Shown piece after piece: positions 13,263 through 38,296 of a stretch of DNA of 64,000 nucleotides. The notes under the pieces are model-generated. The model saw only the letters and a list, made by a program, of their open reading frames with translations. It did no database searches and had not been told where the DNA came from. Both the position numbers and the translations under genes were made by a program. The stretch covers positions 1 to 64,000 of the forward strand of contig NZ_LYXZ01000053.1 of NCBI RefSeq assembly GCF_001676615.1. Reading direction: 5' to 3'. The stretch comes from Labrys sp. WJW (GTDB taxonomy: Bacteria > Pseudomonadota > Alphaproteobacteria > Rhizobiales > Labraceae). The first letter of the stretch is position 1. Each line of letters opens with the position of its first letter.

Positions 13263-15359
13263 ATGAGTGATACCTCCGATCTGTTCGGGAGCGACAAGCC
13301 CGCCCAATCCAAGACGAGCGCCGACAAGGCCGATAATGCGAAGCGACCCTCGACCCAGTCGATTGCCGCCGCCTTGAAGGCTGGACTTGCTCCTAAGCCC
13401 GCCGCGACGAAAGGCGAAGATGGCTATGGCGCCTCCTCCATCCGCGTGCTCGAGGGCATCGAAGCCATTCGCATGCGTCCCGGCATGTATATCGGCTCGA
13501 CCGGGCCGGAAGGCGACGGCCTGCACCATTTGTTCGCCGAAGTGATCGACAATTCGATGGACGAAGCGGTGGCCGGCCATGCCACCTTCATCGATGTCGA
13601 GCTCACCGCCGACGGCTTCGTCTCGATCACCGACAATGGGCGCGGCATCCCGGTCGAGCCCCATCCCCAATTTCCGGACGAGTCGACCCTCCAGGTCGTG
13701 ATGACAAGGCCGCATTCGGGCGGCAAGTTCAACTCCGACGCCTACCAGACCTCCGGCGGTCTCCACGGCATCGGCGTCACCGCGGTGACCGCCCTGTCGG
13801 AACTCATGGAGGTGGAAGTGGCGCGCGGGCGCGAACTCCACCGCCAGCGTTTTGCCCGCGGCGTGCCGCTCGGCCCCGTCGAGCATATCGGTGCCGCCCC
13901 CAACCGCCGCGGCACCCGGGTGCGTTTCAAGCCGGACATCGAGATCTTCAAGCACGGTATCGCCTTCGATCCCAAGCGCCTGTTCAAGATGGCGCGCTCG
14001 AAAGCCTATCTCTTCCGCGGCGTCGAGATCCGCTGGAAATGCGCAGCCGAACTGCTGATCGGCCATAGCGACGTGCCGGCCGAGGAGAGCTTCAAGTTCC
14101 CGCGCGGCCTGGAGGACTATCTGCGCTCGGCCAGCGAGGGCCTCGAACTCGTCACCGAGCAGATGTTCTCCGGCCGCGTACCCAAGCCGGAGGGACATGG
14201 TTCGGTGGAATGGGCCATCGGCTGGTTCGCCGAGGACGAGGGCTATGTCTCCTCCTATTGCAACACGGTGCCCACCCGCGAAGGCGGCACCCATGAGGCG
14301 GGCCTGCGCATCGCCCTGCTGCGCGGCCTGAAGGACCACGCCGAGCGTATCGGCATCAAGCGCGCCAACCAGCTCACCACCGAAGACGTGATGGCCTGCA
14401 CGGCGGCCATGCTCTCAGTGTTCATCCGCGAACCCGAATTCTCGTCCCAGACCAAGGCCAAGCTGGTGACCACGGAGGCCAGCCGCATCGTCGAGCAGGC
14501 CCTGAAGGATGCCTTCGACCATTGGCTGGCTTCCATGCCGTCCCAGGCCGCCAAACTGCTCGATTTCGTGGTCGAAAGGGCCGAGGAGCGCCTGCGTCGC
14601 CGGGCCGAGAAGGACGTGGCGCGCAAGACCGCAACGCGCAAACTGCGCTTGCCAGGCAAGCTCGCAGATTGCTCGAACAACGCCGCGCAAGGCTCTGAAT
14701 TGTTTATCGTCGAAGGCGATTCCGCCGGCGGCTCAGCCAAGCAGGCGCGCGACCGTTCCAACCAGGCGGTGCTGCCTTTGCGCGGCAAGATCCTCAACGT
14801 CGCCAATGCCGGCAAGGACAAGCTCGCCCAGAACCAGCAATTGCAGGACCTGGGACAGGCGCTCGGCTGCGGCATGGGCACCCAGTACCGCGATGATGAT
14901 CTGCGCTACGAGAAGATCATCATCATGACGGACGCCGACGTCGACGGCGCCCATATCGCCTCCCTGCTGATCACCTTCTTCTGGCGCCAGATGCCGCGCC
15001 TGATCGAGCGGGGCCACCTCTATCTCGCCGCCCCGCCCCTCTATCGCCTGACCCAAGGCACCAAATCGCTCTATGCGCGTGACGATGCCCACAAGGACGA
15101 GCTGGTGAAATCGGCCTTCAAGCCCAATCAGAAGATCGAGATCGGCCGCTTCAAGGGCCTGGGCGAGATGATGCCGGCTCAGCTGAAGGAAACCACCATG
15201 GACCCCAAGAAGCGCACGCTTCTCAAGGTCACGGTGATCGACGAGGAACGCGCGGAGACCTCGATTTCCGTCGAACGGCTGATGGGCAACAAGCCCGAAG
15301 CCCGTTTTGCCTTCATCCAGGAACAGGCCGCCTTCGCCGGCGAACTGGTGGATATCTGA
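13263..15359 (+). CDS. parE: DNA topoisomerase IV subunit B
   Basis: ATPase subunit of topoisomerase IV, which unlinks replicated chromosomes together with ParC. 698 residues. The GHKL ATPase is shown by EVIDNSMDEAVAG, DNGRGIPVE and GGLHGIGVTAVTAL. The TOPRIM metal site is EGDSAGGSAKQARDR with DADVDGAHI, and the C-terminus QLKETTMDPKKRTLLKV is conserved. No large GyrB-type insert is evident and IRVLEGIEAIRMRPGMYIGS fits ParE. The start is MSDTSDLFG at 13263; the open frame from 13143 would cover the two hairpins and is non-conserved. Confidence 0.94.
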   Translation: MSDTSDLFGSDKPAQSKTSADKADNAKRPSTQSIAAALKAGLAPKPAATKGEDGYGASSIRVLEGIEAIRMRPGMYIGSTGPEGDGLHHLFAEVIDNSMDEAVAGHATFIDVELTADGFVSITDNGRGIPVEPHPQFPDESTLQVVMTRPHSGGKFNSDAYQTSGGLHGIGVTAVTALSELMEVEVARGRELHRQRFARGVPLGPVEHIGAAPNRRGTRVRFKPDIEIFKHGIAFDPKRLFKMARSKAYLFRGVEIRWKCAAELLIGHSDVPAEESFKFPRGLEDYLRSASEGLELVTEQMFSGRVPKPEGHGSVEWAIGWFAEDEGYVSSYCNTVPTREGGTHEAGLRIALLRGLKDHAERIGIKRANQLTTEDVMACTAAMLSVFIREPEFSSQTKAKLVTTEASRIVEQALKDAFDHWLASMPSQAAKLLDFVVERAEERLRRRAEKDVARKTATRKLRLPGKLADCSNNAAQGSELFIVEGDSAGGSAKQARDRSNQAVLPLRGKILNVANAGKDKLAQNQQLQDLGQALGCGMGTQYRDDDLRYEKIIIMTDADVDGAHIASLLITFFWRQMPRLIERGHLYLAAPPLYRLTQGTKSLYARDDAHKDELVKSAFKPNQKIEIGRFKGLGEMMPAQLKETTMDPKKRTLLKVTVIDEERAETSISVERLMGNKPEARFAFIQEQAAFAGELVDI

Positions 15360-15375
15360 GACCGAGTAGCACTGG

Positions 15376-15398
15376 AGTGCTCCCGGCAGGGGAGCACT
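15376..15398 (+). terminator. Hairpin just after parE
   Basis: agtgctccc (15376-15384) pairs with gggagcact (15390-15398) across ggcag, starting 17 bases after the parE stop. No T-run follows, so intrinsic termination is only a possibility. Confidence 0.45.
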
Positions 15399-15401
15399 TC
15401 T

Positions 15402-15480
15402 CCGGGTGCGCGGATGTCCCGTCCGCCTTTTCTCTGCAAACGAGGCGTTTCCAGGAGCGGACGAGAGGTCCGCGCACCGG
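15402..15480. repeat. ~80-bp hairpin repeat (family B), copy 1
   Basis: Arms ccgggtgcgcggatgtcc... (15402-15426) and gcggacgagaggtccgcg... (15457-15480) pair with a few mismatches. The same arms and spacing occur at 43010-43092 and, in a variant, at 23012-23088. It lies between convergent parE and the RpiR gene. Confidence 0.7.
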
Positions 15481-15500
15481 GTCATTCGCCGCGGCGAAGC

Positions 15501-16355
15501 TCAGGTCTCGAAATCGCCGAAGACGTCCTGGAGGCGGGTCAGCGCCTCGACGCGTTCGCTGACCTCCTCGCCCAGCACGACGATGACATTGCTCAGCATC
15601 AGGTCGAGCACGGCCGTGATCGTCGCCGCCCCGTCCCAGAGCGGGCCGTGGGATCCGGGCACCACCAGGCAGATGTCGGATACCTCCGCACCCCAGGGGC
15701 AGAACTCGTCCGTGATCAGCACCACCTTCACGCCCGCGCGGCGCGCCTCGATCGCCAGGGGCCGTGCCTTGGAGGCGAAGCGACGGACATCATGCAGGAA
15801 GAGCAGCCTGCCGCTCACCGAACCATCGAGCAGTTCGGCATAGGTGCCGTTCAACCCATCCACGAACTGCACGCGCGGACGCGTATAGGAAAGCTGGCTG
15901 GCGAAATACTGAGCGATGCCCCGCACATTCTGGTAGGCCGCGACATAGACCTCGCTGGCGCCGACCAGCGCCTCGATGGTCTGGTGCCATTCGGGTGAGG
16001 TCGTCAGGCCATAGATCATGCCGAGATTGTCGATCTGCTGCTGGATCAGGCCGGCCAGCAGCTTGCCGCCGCTGATATCCTCGCGCAGTCGGTCGACAGG
16101 CCCCTTCACCTGCCAGGCCGGATTGGAGCTGCCGCGCCGCAATTCGCGCTTGAGCTGGTCGAGGCCGTCGAACCCCATGCGCCTGAGATAGCGTCCCACC
16201 GTCATCGGCGAGAGCTCGAGGCGTTCGGCGATCGACTTGGCGGTCTCGAACGGAAGATCGGCGATGTTCCGTTCGAGATAATTGGCGATCAGCTTGTCGG
16301 ATTTCGACCGCCGCAAGGCCTCGTCTTGCAGGAGCTTGAGGATACGCTGCGCCAC
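15501..16355 (-). CDS. RpiR/MurR-family transcriptional regulator (HTH_6 plus SIS)
   Basis: 284 residues. The N-terminal helix-turn-helix includes DLPFETAKSIAERLELSPMT and VGRYLRRMGFDGLDQLK. The C-terminal half has the SIS sugar-isomerase-like fold expected to bind a phosphorylated sugar or similar effector (EVYVAAYQNVRGIAQYF, LFLHDVRRFASKARPLAI). A GTG start at 16355 is supported by GGGGAGG immediately upstream. It lies 28 bases behind the solute-binding protein gene and probably belongs to the same transcript, so it is the obvious local regulator of the adjacent transporter and enzymes. Confidence 0.88.
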   Translation of the reverse strand: MAQRILKLLQDEALRRSKSDKLIANYLERNIADLPFETAKSIAERLELSPMTVGRYLRRMGFDGLDQLKRELRRGSSNPAWQVKGPVDRLREDISGGKLLAGLIQQQIDNLGMIYGLTTSPEWHQTIEALVGASEVYVAAYQNVRGIAQYFASQLSYTRPRVQFVDGLNGTYAELLDGSVSGRLLFLHDVRRFASKARPLAIEARRAGVKVVLITDEFCPWGAEVSDICLVVPGSHGPLWDGAATITAVLDLMLSNVIVVLGEEVSERVEALTRLQDVFGDFET

Positions 16356-30164: not shown

Positions 30165-30797
30165 TCAGACCAGCTTGGCATCGATGGCCAGCCACACGAG
30201 ATGGGCATCGTTGCGGGCACCGAGCTTGGTCTTGATCTGATAATGGTAATTGCGAACCGTCTTGAGGCTGAGATGCATGGATGTGCTGATCGCCTCGGCC
30301 GACCAGCCCGATGCGACCAGGCGCAGAATCTCGGTCTCGCGCGGGCTGAGCTCGGCCAGCGGCGATGAGGCATGGGTAAGGCGTTCGGCCGCGATCTCGC
30401 GCGCCACGTCATTGCTCATCGCCCGTTCGCCCTTGGCCACCAGGGCAACGGAATTGACGAGCTCGGCGGCATCGCTGCCCTTGGTGACATAGCCGGCGGC
30501 CCCCGCCTCGAACGCCTTGAGGGCGAAAGCGGCCCCGCTGTGCATGGTAAAGATGAGAACCCGGGCGGCATGATCCCATTGGCGGATATGGCGCAAGGCT
30601 TCGATGCCGCTGAGGCCCGGCAGGGAAAGATCCATCACCACCACGTCGGGCTTGGCTTTCCGGTAGGCCTCATAGGCCGAAACGGCATCGCTGGCTTCGG
30701 CCACCACGCGATAGCCGGGCACCTTTTCGAGCAGCCGCCGATACCCCTCCCTGACGACGGGATGGTCATCCACCAGCAGGATGCTGAGATCGCTCAT
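30165..30797 (-). CDS. NarL/FixJ-type response regulator
   Basis: 210 residues. The receiver domain has DDHPVVREGYRRLLEK, the phosphoacceptor Asp in VVVMDLSLPG, TMHSG and the Lys in YVTKGSD. The LuxR-type DNA-binding domain is LSPRETEILRLVASGWSAEA with TVRNYHYQIKTKL. The start codon overlaps the kinase stop by four bases. Partner of the sensor kinase encoded upstream; no target is marked by the sequence. Confidence 0.92.
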   Translation of the reverse strand: MSDLSILLVDDHPVVREGYRRLLEKVPGYRVVAEASDAVSAYEAYRKAKPDVVVMDLSLPGLSGIEALRHIRQWDHAARVLIFTMHSGAAFALKAFEAGAAGYVTKGSDAAELVNSVALVAKGERAMSNDVAREIAAERLTHASSPLAELSPRETEILRLVASGWSAEAISTSMHLSLKTVRNYHYQIKTKLGARNDAHLVWLAIDAKLV

Positions 30798-32203
30798 GCC
30801 GGGACAGGCTGGGCCGGGCCGCGCATCCGATTGGCGCGATCCGCAAGCAACGGAATGATTGCAGCGATGCGAACGCCGTGTCGCGCCTGGCCGATGGAAA
30901 GGCTTCCGCCCAGTGCCGTCACCCGTTCCCGCATGCCGAGAATTCCATGCCCGGCCTCCATGGTCAGCCGTAGCGGATTGCCGCCGCCGTCATCCTCGAC
31001 GCTGAGCTCGACAGCGCCCCCCTCCTGCAGGCCTGTTCGCTTGACGAACAGGCGGATATCGCGCGGCTTGCCGTGGCGCGCGGCATTGGTCAGGCATTCC
31101 TGTGCAATGCGATAGATGCTGAGGGCGATGGCGTGCGGAAGGCCGGTGAGATTGCCGGCGATATCAAGGTGGAATCGGGCGCGCGTGGTGTTGCCTACAT
31201 TCCAGCCAGCCACGAGTTGGGCCAGACTGGCCTCCAGGCCCAGTTCCTCGAGTTCCTGCGAACGCAACCGTTGCAGGGTGCCGCGCAAGGTCGCATTCAT
31301 CCGCCGGGTCACTTCGGCGATGGATCGAGCGTCCTTGGCAATCTCCGGCCGGTCCTCAGCCTCCAATTCGATGGCGCCCGCAAGGGCATTGACGGCCGCC
31401 AGACACTGGCCGAATTCGTCATGGAGATCGCGCGCCAGCGTGCGTCGTTCCTCCTCTTGCACCTGGAACAGGCGGTTGGTGAGGGCGACGCGCTGGGCCG
31501 TGGTTTCGGCCAAACGGCAAGTGAGATCGTTCAAGGCGCCGGCGATGCGATCGAATTCCGCCGTCCGGTAGCCCGGCAGACGATAGCCGTAATCCCCGCG
31601 TTCGAGGCGGCGCAGGCCGGCGACGATGGCACGCGCCGGCAGAAGGGACTGGCCGATAAAAAGCCCGGCGAGCACGCCGATGGCGACCGCCAGCAGGCCC
31701 GCCACGCTGAGCACGATGGTGATGCGGTCCCAGGCCAGCCGCACGGCGGCACCGTGGTCGGGCACGGCCTCGATCGTGCCGGCCTGACGCTGGCGGTCAC
31801 TGAGGGGGCGCTCGACGGCCTGGTTGGGCCCGAACAGCCAGTCATAGGACGTTTCGAACCAGGCCGGCGCGGGACGGCCGATCGTCTCGAGCTGGCTGCA
31901 CAGGCGCCGGGGGGCTTCCTGGCCGAGCGTGACGGTTATGCATATGCCCGGCGAAATCACCTTCATCGTCACGATGGTGTTCCAATCGGGCAAGGGCAGG
32001 ATGAGGTTGCGCGAAAGTCCGCCGCGCCAGAGCAGCTCGCGCCAATAGAGAGCTTCCAGCGCTTTGGAGACCCGCTCGGCCGAGGCGCGTGTCTCCGTTT
32101 CGGTGGCATGGCGCGTATCGTGCAAGACCCAGCCGATGGCACAGGCGAGGCAGAGAACGATGGCGGCTGCGAGCCGCAAAACCAGATGACCGAAGAGGTT
32201 CAT
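30794..32203 (-). CDS. Membrane sensor histidine kinase, NarX/UhpB class (HisKA_3)
   Basis: 469 residues. TM1 is around residues 8-26 (LRLAAAIVLCLACAIGWVL), followed by a periplasmic domain of about 150 residues with two cysteines (GICITV and RRLCSQ). TM2 (IVLSVAGLLAVAIGVLAGLF) leads into HAMP and the HisKA_3 dimerisation helix with phosphoacceptor His in LARDLHDEFGQCL. The HATPase_c domain has RIAQECLTNAARHG as N box and VEDDGGGNPL and GHGILGMRERV as G boxes. Start at 32203. It is divergent from the MotA/ExbB-like cassette across 238 bases. Confidence 0.92.
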   Translation of the reverse strand: MNLFGHLVLRLAAAIVLCLACAIGWVLHDTRHATETETRASAERVSKALEALYWRELLWRGGLSRNLILPLPDWNTIVTMKVISPGICITVTLGQEAPRRLCSQLETIGRPAPAWFETSYDWLFGPNQAVERPLSDRQRQAGTIEAVPDHGAAVRLAWDRITIVLSVAGLLAVAIGVLAGLFIGQSLLPARAIVAGLRRLERGDYGYRLPGYRTAEFDRIAGALNDLTCRLAETTAQRVALTNRLFQVQEEERRTLARDLHDEFGQCLAAVNALAGAIELEAEDRPEIAKDARSIAEVTRRMNATLRGTLQRLRSQELEELGLEASLAQLVAGWNVGNTTRARFHLDIAGNLTGLPHAIALSIYRIAQECLTNAARHGKPRDIRLFVKRTGLQEGGAVELSVEDDGGGNPLRLTMEAGHGILGMRERVTALGGSLSIGQARHGVRIAAIIPLLADRANRMRGPAQPVPA

Positions 32204-32441: not shown

Positions 32442-33191
32442 ATGAGCGAGCGTCAACCGCGCCTTTCCGGTGGAGATCCCCTGCTGCCCTGGCTCATCTT
32501 TACCGGCGTCAGCATCTTCGCCTTCCTCGTACTCTGGTATTTTGGCTTCATCGCCAAGATGATCGACGAGGACAGGACCTATATCTCCGTTGTCATCGTC
32601 CTCCTCTATATCGCAAGCAGTCTGCATTGCCTGTGGCGCATCGTTTTCATCGGGCGCGAGGGGGAGGCTGCCCGCCGCACGGCCCAGTGGGTCATTCGAG
32701 GTGGCAAGTCCGCCCTGGCGACCTTGGGTTCGGTGCCCGACGGAAAGCTTGGGCAAGGCCTGGTCGCCGGCCACATACGCGACCTCGTCACCAAGGCCGA
32801 CCTGCAAGGCTCGGCCCGCCTCGACCAGACCTTGCTGTTGCGTGTCCTCGCCGACCGGCTGCGGGGTTCCAACCGCTATGGTGCCTTTGCCAGCGATACG
32901 TTGATGAAGCTCGGGCTGCTCGGCACCATCGTCGGCTTCATCATGATGCTGGCTCCGATCGCCGGGCTCGACACCGACAGCAAGGAAGCCGTGCGCAGTT
33001 CGATGTCGCTGATGAGCGGGGGCATGGCGGTCGCCATGTACACCACGCTGGTAGGCCTGATCGGTTCGATCATGATCAAGGTGCAATATCATTTCCTCGA
33101 CGGCGCCACCTCGCGCATCTTCTCCTTCGCGGTCGATCTCACCGAAGTCCATGTGATTTCGGCGCTGGAAGCGCAAAGGGCGCCGGGATGA
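32442..33191 (+). CDS. MotA/TolQ/ExbB-family proton-channel-like protein
   Basis: 249 residues with four predicted membrane helices: about 14-36 (PWLIFTGVSIFAFLVLWYFG), 48-68, 150-170 and 190-213. The last two carry the family signature LGLLGTIVGFIMMLAPIAGL and SGGMAVAMYTTLVGLIGSI, including the threonines that line the pore in ExbB/MotA. It is closer to TolQ/ExbB in length than to MotA. Overlaps the next gene by four bases (atga). No tol, ton or flagellar genes lie nearby, so its role is not one of the standard ones; see the partner gene. Confidence 0.8.
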   Translation: MSERQPRLSGGDPLLPWLIFTGVSIFAFLVLWYFGFIAKMIDEDRTYISVVIVLLYIASSLHCLWRIVFIGREGEAARRTAQWVIRGGKSALATLGSVPDGKLGQGLVAGHIRDLVTKADLQGSARLDQTLLLRVLADRLRGSNRYGAFASDTLMKLGLLGTIVGFIMMLAPIAGLDTDSKEAVRSSMSLMSGGMAVAMYTTLVGLIGSIMIKVQYHFLDGATSRIFSFAVDLTEVHVISALEAQRAPG

Positions 33192-33820
33192 TCGATGACT
33201 TCGATCTCCACGGACGGGAAGAAGCCTTCGACCCGTTCAGCGTGGTGCTGTTCAAGGCCCTGCAGGTCATCGCCTTCCTGTTCTTCGTGGTGTTCATCAT
33301 CATTTCCCCCAAGGCCAATGAGGGCAAGGTCGACAGCAAGGCCGAGTTCATCATCACCATGGATTGGCCCGACAATCATCCCGACGACATGGACATCTTC
33401 GTCCAGGATCCGCTCGGCAACATCGCCTGGTACCGCCGGCGCGAAGCGGGTTTCCTGGTGCTCGACCGCGACGATCGCGGCGGCCTCAACGATTTCGTCA
33501 TGGTCAACGGGCGCAAGCAACAGACCAAGGTGCGCGAGGAGCTCGTCAGCATTCGCGGTTTCGTCGCCGGCGAATACACCGTGAACGTCTATCACTTCAC
33601 CGCCCTGACCAAGCAGCCGGTGCCGGTGACGGTAACGGTGCAAAAGCTCAATCCGGTCGCCAAGATCGTCGCCCGGGAGACGATTGAAACGGCTGACGGG
33701 GGAAGCGAGCAGACCGCCATACGCTTCACCATGGACGCGCAGGGCGAGGTCACCGGCACCAGCCGGGAGGCCAAGTCGATCTTGCGCAGCATGCACAATG
33801 CCTGGAGCAAGAATCTATGA
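33188..33820 (+). CDS. ExbD-topology membrane protein with periplasmic beta domain, unrecognised
   Basis: 210 residues: short cytoplasmic N-terminus, one membrane helix at about 18-40 (VVLFKALQVIAFLFFVVFII), then a periplasmic domain. An acidic residue (Asp15 in FDPF) sits at the start of the helix, as in ExbD/TolR/MotB. The external domain contains WPDNHPDDMDIFVQDPLGN and FVAGEYTVNVYHF, which looks like a beta-sandwich. It lacks an OmpA-type peptidoglycan-binding motif and is not an ordinary TolR. Translationally coupled to the channel-like gene. I do not recognise a named family. Confidence 0.7.
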   Translation: MIDDFDLHGREEAFDPFSVVLFKALQVIAFLFFVVFIIISPKANEGKVDSKAEFIITMDWPDNHPDDMDIFVQDPLGNIAWYRRREAGFLVLDRDDRGGLNDFVMVNGRKQQTKVREELVSIRGFVAGEYTVNVYHFTALTKQPVPVTVTVQKLNPVAKIVARETIETADGGSEQTAIRFTMDAQGEVTGTSREAKSILRSMHNAWSKNL

Positions 33821-33847
33821 CCGCGGCAATGACGGTGGGCGGCGATC

Positions 33848-34441
33848 ATGCTTGAGACCAACCTGCTCTGCCTGGTGCTCGCCTATGTCTTTCTCAGCCT
33901 CCTGATGCTCACCGTGCTGATCGGGCTGGCATTGCCGCGTCTGGTCAAGATCGGCGCGATCGTCGTGGCGAGCCTGTTCTATGTCGTCGTGTTCTTCTCG
34001 ATGCAAGGCTTGCTGGGCTGGTCGGCCCCCGTCGGCGTGCCGGCCCGCTTTCAGGTGCTGTGGACGAGGATCGTCGAACCCAATGTCGTCCAGGGCGAAA
34101 CCGGTGCCATCCATCTCTGGCTCGAGGAGCTGGATGCGGCCAACCTGCCGACCGGCGAGCCGCGCGCCTATCGCCTGCCTTATACGACGAACCTCGCCGG
34201 CCGGGTGGCCAAGGCGCAAAAGGAGATCGAGAAGGGCAATCTGCAGGGGGGACGCGCGGAATTTTTCGGAACGGGAGCATCGCAAAGCGTCCCCACCGGC
34301 CCGCTGCAAACCGGAGCACCGCCCGGAGGGGATCCTTCCGGCGGCGGCCTGTTCGACCCGGCTTTTCTCGGCGGGCAATCGCGCAACGTCGATCTCGTGC
34401 CGCTACCGAAACCGGCGTTGCCGCCGAAGGACATGCCCTGA
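33848..34441 (+). CDS. Unrecognised membrane protein of the MotA/ExbB-like cassette
   Basis: 197 residues. Two N-terminal membrane helices (LCLVLAYVFLSLLMLTVLIG and GAIVVASLFYVVVFFSMQGL) are followed by a soluble region with FQVLWTRIVEPNVVQGETGA and YRLPYTTNLAGRVAKAQKEI. A Gly/Pro-rich tail ends in PKPALPPKDMP. It begins 27 bases after the previous gene on the same strand. No family recognised; the conserved position suggests a third component of the same membrane complex. Confidence 0.65.
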   Translation: MLETNLLCLVLAYVFLSLLMLTVLIGLALPRLVKIGAIVVASLFYVVVFFSMQGLLGWSAPVGVPARFQVLWTRIVEPNVVQGETGAIHLWLEELDAANLPTGEPRAYRLPYTTNLAGRVAKAQKEIEKGNLQGGRAEFFGTGASQSVPTGPLQTGAPPGGDPSGGGLFDPAFLGGQSRNVDLVPLPKPALPPKDMP

Positions 34442-35067: not shown

Positions 35068-37488
<2,421 letters not shown>

Positions 37489-37498
37489 GATCAGTTCC

Positions 37499-37831
37499 TC
37501 ACTTTTCTTCCATGACGCATTGCAGCGGATGCTGATGCTTACGGGCAAAATCCATGACTTGAGTCACCTTGGTCTCAGCGACCTCGTAGGTGTAGATGCC
37601 GCATTCTCCCACGCCATTGTGGTGAACATGCAGCATGATGTGGGTGGCACCGTCGCGGTCCTTGTTGAAGAAGCGCTCCAGCACCTCGATGACGAATTCC
37701 ATCGGGGTATAATCGTCATTCAGCAACAGGACCCGGTAGAGTTTGGGGCGTTTGGTCGCCGGCCGCGTCTTGGTAATCACGGCCGCGTTAGTGCCCTCAC
37801 CGCCACCTGGAGCGCGGGGCTCGCGGGCCAT
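37499..37831 (-). CDS. clpS: ClpA adaptor ClpS (N-recognin)
   Basis: Delivers N-degron substrates to ClpA. The core [20 protein letters not shown], the zinc- or N-degron-pocket histidines in [10 protein letters not shown], and [20 protein letters not shown] are all present. The start at 37831 (MAREPRA) gives 110 residues, normal for alphaproteobacterial ClpS1. An ATG at 37897 would give 132 residues, and neither has a clear ribosome site. Confidence 0.9.
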
Positions 37832-38296
37832 GCCGATCAGGGGAAACGGCTTGTGCGCGGCGCTCAATGCAATATCCAGAATCGTTGAATCTTCCATTTC
37901 GACAACTGCAATCGCCTGCAGCCTAACATGATCTCGACGAGGAAAAAGGCTTCCACGAACTGAATTTATGATCGCCCCCGACTTTCCGCTAGTGCGACAA
38001 CGCGCAATAATGGGTTCCACGTTCCGAACAGTGGGTGAAGTGCCTCTTTTTCATTCATTCTCAACCAATCAGACAATCATGCGACCAAAATGCCGCGCTG
38101 GCTGGGCACTTAACCGATCCGTAACCGCGTCCGCCTAGGTTCATTGACTGTGTCGTCCCTGCAGCGGCACGGTGAGACAGCCTCCCTCCGGCAAAGGGGC
38201 GGGGTGAGCCCCGGACGAAGGGCGAATGAGACCACCGGTCTCGCAGGGACATGTAATGGACGGTGCTGTCGCGCCGGTGAGTATTGGGGACTTTGC
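37832..38296. other. Divergent intergenic region between clpS and the carboxypeptidase gene
   Basis: Should hold promoters for clpS-clpA (leftward) and the carboxypeptidase (rightward). A short hairpin, cgggg-tgag-ccccg at 38200-38213, is visible. No other feature and no convincing small gene was seen. Confidence 0.4.

Follow-up and report, generated by a model that had tools for sequence, protein, structure and literature searches.

The window, a 64,000-nucleotide stretch of DNA from the soil bacterium Labrys sp. WJW (genome 7.6 Mb), contains a cassette of three genes on the forward strand, here termed P1, P2 and P3, and a divergently oriented two-component system on the reverse strand. P1 (32442–33191, +) encodes a channel subunit of 249 residues, in which an earlier note, made from the sequence of this DNA, had recognized a four-helix protein with the pore signatures of MotA, TolQ and ExbB. 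Pfam MotA_ExbB (PF01618) matches P1 at an E-value of 3.2e-9, with 37 bits against a cut-off of 22.9. Hydropathy analysis revealed four transmembrane (TM) segments, at about residues 14–32, 50–68, 157–175 and 194–212, with a positively charged loop joining helices 2 and 3. Four helices are the pattern of MotA; ExbB and TolQ are three-helix proteins. Sequence analysis of 26 homologs with identities down to about 20% revealed that the motifs GL.GT..GF and GM..A.YTT..G are invariant, including residues Gly158, Gly161, Thr162, Gly165, Thr201, Thr202 and Gly205, which, judging from the motif alignment, probably correspond to the pore glycines and threonines of ExbB and TolQ. The PDB chains found with the P1 profile are ZorA, MotA and ExbB. 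None of the NCBIfam equivalog models reached its cut-off on P1: TolQ scored 10.9 of 221 bits, and the ExbB model gave no match.

P2 (33188–33820, +) encodes a protein of 210 residues and overlaps P1 by ATGA at positions 33188–33191. It possesses one TM segment according to hydropathy analysis, and the predicted helix spans residues 16–39, directly preceded by Asp15 (codon at 33230–33232, +). This aspartate, a candidate for relaying ions where the helix begins, is invariant in 39 homologs with identities down to 19%. The N-terminus of P2 is acidic, as is that of ExbD, a feature that by itself favors no orientation, N-in included. In the AlphaFold2 model of P2 (pLDDT 86.7), the part following the helix is predicted to fold almost entirely into a beta-sandwich, mostly with pLDDT above 90. 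Alignment, AlphaFold2, structural matches and hhalign together define this domain (residues 52–192; 33341–33763, +), which holds six invariant residues: Trp60, Asp67, Asp69, Asp95, Glu118 and Glu174. The gene overlap, the single helix with an aspartate at its start and the beta-rich domain had all been described in the earlier note, and each of them is borne out by these analyses.

P2 matches no family of Pfam, NCBIfam or PADLOC, in line with the absence of OmpA, TolR and MotB motifs claimed before. The Pfam model of ExbD/TolR (PF02472) has no match among the 39 members of the P2 family, and the profile comparison proposed in the note placed P2 apart from ExbD/TolR (hhalign E-value of 0.17); homology to this family was dropped on account of that null result. 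Neither P2 nor its homologs have a Pfam match to the OmpA-like peptidoglycan-binding domain of the MotB type, and a peptidoglycan-binding reading of P2 was likewise discarded for want of support. In contrast to three unrelated control profiles, which gave hhalign E-values of 0.07–0.6, DUF2135 (PF09906) aligned to the P2 domain at 2.4e-6 and 3.2e-6 with a probability of 88%–89%. Because only 3 of the 39 members match the Pfam DUF2135 model (best 0.0018), we consider P2 a relative of DUF2135 and not a full member. DUF2135 (YfaP-like) proteins and P2 have in common a W...DxD...P.G and G.Y pattern.

Structural comparison pointed to the TerD fold. Foldseek alone was uninformative, with no match better than an E-value of 6e-3, and the Z scores given here come from a second structural aligner. 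Four of the top six matches are TerD chains with Z scores of 8.5–10.7, whereas the next group reaches at most 6.1; the best of them, 3ibz, superimposes over 143 residues with an rmsd of 4.0 (Z 10.7), which places the model within the fold of TerD (PF02342). The TerD sequence profile compared with P2 gave E-values of 0.11–0.14, with no detectable similarity, and TerD was dropped as a sequence family for P2 while the fold similarity was kept. The DUF2135 profile matches TerD weakly (8e-4). The P2 domain may thus be read, on profile and model, as a DUF2135-like member of the TerD-type sandwich. Pfam PPC, likewise a sandwich, weakly matches 16 of the 39 P2 homologs (best 0.0094). According to the title of 2kxt, TerD binds calcium. 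The DUF2135 proteins that we examined carry apparent signal peptides, as judged by eye. Given these signal peptides and the position of Asp15, a periplasmic location fits the P2 domain, which most likely faces that compartment.

P3 (33848–34441, +) follows P2 and is conserved beside it. It is the third, two-helix protein of the earlier note: its 197 residues comprise two TM segments by hydropathy analysis, a small beta domain and a Gly/Pro-rich tail, the C-terminal part of which is rich in proline. No Pfam family matches P3. Its predicted model has a pLDDT of 72.5, and the fold matches are OB-like with Z scores of at most 6.7, which does not exceed background; an OB-like assignment was abandoned for this reason. 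An unnamed four-helix protein, P4 (34525–34977), begins 83 bases past P3. Among 297 genomes of the order, only 8 have P4, and we therefore excluded it from the cassette. A homolog of P4 is apparently fused in frame to the N-terminus of P1 in Filomicrobium (L055:6709–8004). In about a dozen genomes, non-alphaproteobacterial ones included, a gene for a DUF3108-like lipoprotein, possibly an outer-membrane component, lies 3' of P3 (L168, L169, L172–L174 and L179–L181, with three homologs in L174). Farther downstream in the window, clpA (35068–37548, −; Pfam) and a clpS-like gene (37499–38020, −; by eye) have no evident link to the cassette.

The MotA/TolQ/ExbB engine has only a few understood uses, namely flagella, Ton, Tol, gliding and Zorya, and no tol, ton, flagellar or Zorya genes are found among the nearest neighbors of the cassette. 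With ExbB–ExbD and TolQ–TolR, which Puente-Lelievre et al. 2025 (PMC12505986) class as generic ion transporters, the cassette shares a MotA_ExbB channel domain, adjacent overlapping genes, and a partner that has a single helix, an Asp close to the helix start and a folded soluble domain. As in ExbD and TolR, this Asp would lie at the cytoplasmic start of the partner helix. However, P1 is predicted to have four helices and falls far short of the TolQ cut-off, P2 carries a DUF2135/TerD-like sandwich and resembles ExbD/TolR in topology but not in sequence, and neither P3 nor the two-component system has a counterpart in these pairs. P2 differs from MotB of the MotA–MotB stator in having this sandwich in place of an OmpA-like domain, and from DUF2135 and TerD proteins in that the domain is attached to an ExbD-like helix and has a channel as its partner. 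The ZorA models of Zorya are the best family-specific matches of P1 (3.5e-6), yet P1 scores 22.6 bits against the NCBIfam ZorA cut-off of 700 and is devoid of the long ZorA tail, and PADLOC matches none of P2–P4. A Zorya identity was dropped because the ZorA scores are far below the cut-off; no ZorB partner was recognized by PADLOC.

The cassette is widely conserved. That of Labrys okinawensis is 96% identical, and a second P1–P2–P3 copy on contig 129 of the same Labrys sp. WJW genome (L109:5109–7104), with a P2 of 74% identity, has no two-component genes and sits between leuS and a LolA gene, an arrangement similar to that in Labrys sp. KNU-23 (L017). A first survey with one genome per species yielded 80 loci, among them those of Labrys, Inquilinus, Dongia, Hyphomicrobium and Bradyrhizobium. 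In all 77 loci of this survey that are not cut by a contig end, the three genes occur together, a check that the earlier note had proposed, and synteny is kept in nearly all regions inspected, with P3 not detected in L116 and L184. The P2 profile matches 60 of 385 sampled alphaproteobacterial genomes; counted at an E-value below 1e-30, the cassette is present in 55 of the 385 (about 14%), some of them as small as 1.4 Mb. A sample across the phylum Pseudomonadota added three genera, all from one non-alphaproteobacterial family, and P2 had no match on PLSDB plasmids. Since it is conserved in dozens of genomes, the cassette is not a product of chance. It is a real and conserved unit that is unnamed in the libraries searched, and literature searches for DUF2135 and for the cassette under other words found no description of it.

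The genes divergent to P1 encode a sensor histidine kinase with HAMP, HisKA_3 and HATPase_c domains (30794–32203, −) and, overlapping it by ATGA, a response regulator with a receiver and a LuxR-type HTH domain (30165–30797, −), all assigned by Pfam. In the first survey, kinase and regulator adjoin the cassette in 65 of the 80 loci; a further 5, some truncated, have only the kinase there. An operator-like inverted repeat, CGGGCAAAATGCCCA, lies between the kinase and P1 (32300–32314) and is conserved across loci: a first pass found TYGGGMAWWWTKCCCRA in 57 of 70 kinase/P1 intergenic regions, where 0.016–0.025 per region is expected. In a wider region, the repeat precedes P1 in 67 of 73 two-component loci; in the remaining six it lies before the kinase (two), before a second kinase (one) or before a TonB-dependent receptor (one, L180), or has one mismatch (two). 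Hence all 73 loci with two-component genes carry the repeat, against none of the 34 loci without them, though many of the 73 are from related Bradyrhizobium and so are not independent. Labrys, Inquilinus, Dongia and Hyphomicrobium have the same repeat within otherwise different flanks. Six genomes contain 2–5 operator sites each, compared with 0–1 for reversed-pattern controls. Operator and regulator are absent at many cassette loci, and the two-component genes are missing in most other families. Where present, the two-component system, which the note had offered as a possible controller, belongs to the unit and would regulate it through this repeat.

Several of the other operator sites lie beside TonB-dependent receptors. 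In three Bradyrhizobium genomes, such a site is located before or next to a receptor gene with a related kinase alongside. In one of these (L275), the receptor-side kinase, related to the window kinase at an E-value of 1e-39, has a LapD/MoxY sensor domain, and the other flank holds the start of a divergent quinohemoprotein PQQ dehydrogenase gene. In the non-alphaproteobacterium L180, the operator likewise precedes a TonB-dependent receptor beside a related kinase, and the receptors of L275 and L180 are homologous, with 32% identity over 802 residues. PQQ dehydrogenases in the rare-earth switch are controlled by LuxR-type systems such as PedS2/PedR2 and by the MoxY-domain kinase MxaY (PMC6115532, PMC12997753). 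The two-component system of the window shares with MoxYX, MxaYB and PedS2–PedR2 a HisKA_3 and HATPase_c kinase and a receiver/LuxR-type regulator; it differs in that its kinase has no recognized LapD/MoxY sensor domain, present in the Bradyrhizobium relative, and adjoins the motor cassette instead of a dehydrogenase.

Genome content points in the same direction. Among the 385 genomes, the PQQ alcohol dehydrogenase model TIGR03075 matches 37 of the 55 with the cassette and 69 of the 330 others (odds ratio 7.8, p 2e-11), an association of gene presence in which kinship is allowed for by family counts only. In the main clade, cut at an E-value of 1e-60 chosen post hoc, the dehydrogenase occurs in 27 of 31 genomes; by family, 14 of 15 have it, compared with 32 of the 149 other families (the underlying family total, 178, is an inferred figure). 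The divergent clade shows a weak association (10 of 24 genomes, p 0.02). A PQQ dehydrogenase abuts the cassette or lies within a few kb of it in several unrelated lineages (L170, L171, L175–L177, L182, L183, L037 and L065); that of L037 has a WDYD motif, which we take to be the lanthanide type, and the others do not. Ped-like propeller, substrate-binding, pentapeptide or ABC genes adjoin the cassette in L114, L178, L182 and L183. In the Labrys sp. WJW genome, neither cassette copy was found to have a PQQ dehydrogenase as its neighbor. An independent hint comes from Methylomicrobium alcaliphilum, in which two genes annotated as MotA/TolQ/ExbB, possible homologs of P1 and P2 (candidates MEALZ_3990 and MEALZ_3991), fall together with mxaFI of the Ca-type methanol dehydrogenase when La replaces Ca (PMC6277846). 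Association and regulation together suggest that the cassette serves PQQ-linked alcohol oxidation.

These results enable us to propose a putative model, in which P1–P2–P3 form a new branch of the ion-driven envelope motors of the 5:2 type that serves PQQ-linked alcohol oxidation; we consider the chances of this model evenly balanced. A ring of P1 would enclose a pair of P2, and the flow of protons (or sodium ions) past Asp15 would move P2, a motor action that we infer from family membership and the conserved Asp in the sequences. The work would be passed on in the periplasm by the DUF2135/TerD-like domain together with P3, for the benefit of the PQQ-dependent dehydrogenases that oxidize alcohols in this compartment. 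The cassette would be switched, via the operator, by its neighboring LuxR-type two-component system in Labrys, Inquilinus, Hyphomicrobium and Bradyrhizobium. The step most likely served is the supply or loading of a metal ion or PQQ, or the outer-membrane import of either, which is our best guess and the most uncertain part of the model. In its fullest form, a dedicated machine, not described in the literature searched, would employ its DUF2135/TerD-like domain, a putative metal binder, in loading or importing the calcium, lanthanide or PQQ that alcohol dehydrogenases of the periplasm need, as part of a rare-earth/alcohol regulon of soil and marine bacteria; we regard this form as less likely than not. 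The earlier note had suggested a new ion-driven machine acting on the periplasm or cell wall. Its channel, its non-ExbD partner and its co-travelling genes stand, with motor action suggested by homology, but action on the cell wall finds no support, as the P2 domain is DUF2135/TerD-like and not peptidoglycan-binding, and the genomic evidence leads to PQQ-dependent alcohol oxidation.

Alternatively, the cassette might be a general Tol-like motor for envelope stress or maintenance, its link to PQQ reflecting shared ecology and not function, which we think rather unlikely. Such a role would account for the 9 of 29 sampled cassette families in which no genome has both cassette and PQQ dehydrogenase, for settings as varied as leuS–lolA in the second Labrys copy or the vicinity of ctaA, and for the DUF3108-like lipoprotein after P3. 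However, the PQQ co-occurrence persists in gene-poor 1.4-Mb genomes and at the family level (14 of 15), several separate neighborhoods hold PQQ or ped-like genes, and the locus with a TonB-dependent receptor and a PQQ dehydrogenase has the same type of regulator and operator. It is improbable that the cassette is a TonB-independent energizer, substituting for ExbBD at the operator-bearing receptor and importing a metal chelate or PQQ: the operator before homologous receptors in L275 and L180 and the proline-rich tail of P3 would suit it, but P2 and P3 have no TonB C-terminal domain, other ExbB- and ExbD-type genes are retained in the genome, and only in L180, perhaps also in L050, is the receptor near the cassette. 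It is very improbable that the cassette is a non-motor ion channel or signaling module, with P2 as a sensor and the two-component system tuning it, for although the fold of P2 resembles calcium-binding TerD and DUF4425-type domains and the regulatory link is tight (operator in 73 of 73 against 0 of 34), the pore and Asp residues found in functional ion-driven motors do not vary and most other families have no two-component genes at the cassette.

To our knowledge, no motor has been assigned to the supply or maturation of calcium- or lanthanide-using PQQ dehydrogenases. If the motor model is true, it would point to one for this step and would add to the uses of the MotA/TolQ/ExbB engine one that has a partner of a new type and is common in Alphaproteobacteria, those with streamlined genomes among them.

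Some further observations concern regulation. In Hyphomicrobium sp. NDB2Meth4 (L050:9400–11474 and 13317–15587), the operator adjoins another related kinase/regulator pair, the second in this genome, and an ORF resembling a TonB-dependent receptor lies a little further on. In two Labrys genomes, the operator pattern is also seen 51 bases ahead of a repABC partition gene of the repA type (L268:5884–5898 and L271:5705–5719); the extra Labrys matches (repABC on C57; C63 and C78) were considered unrelated sites or due to chance. L179 and L180, from the non-alphaproteobacterial family, have a gene for a GAF/PAS sigma-54 activator upstream of P1.
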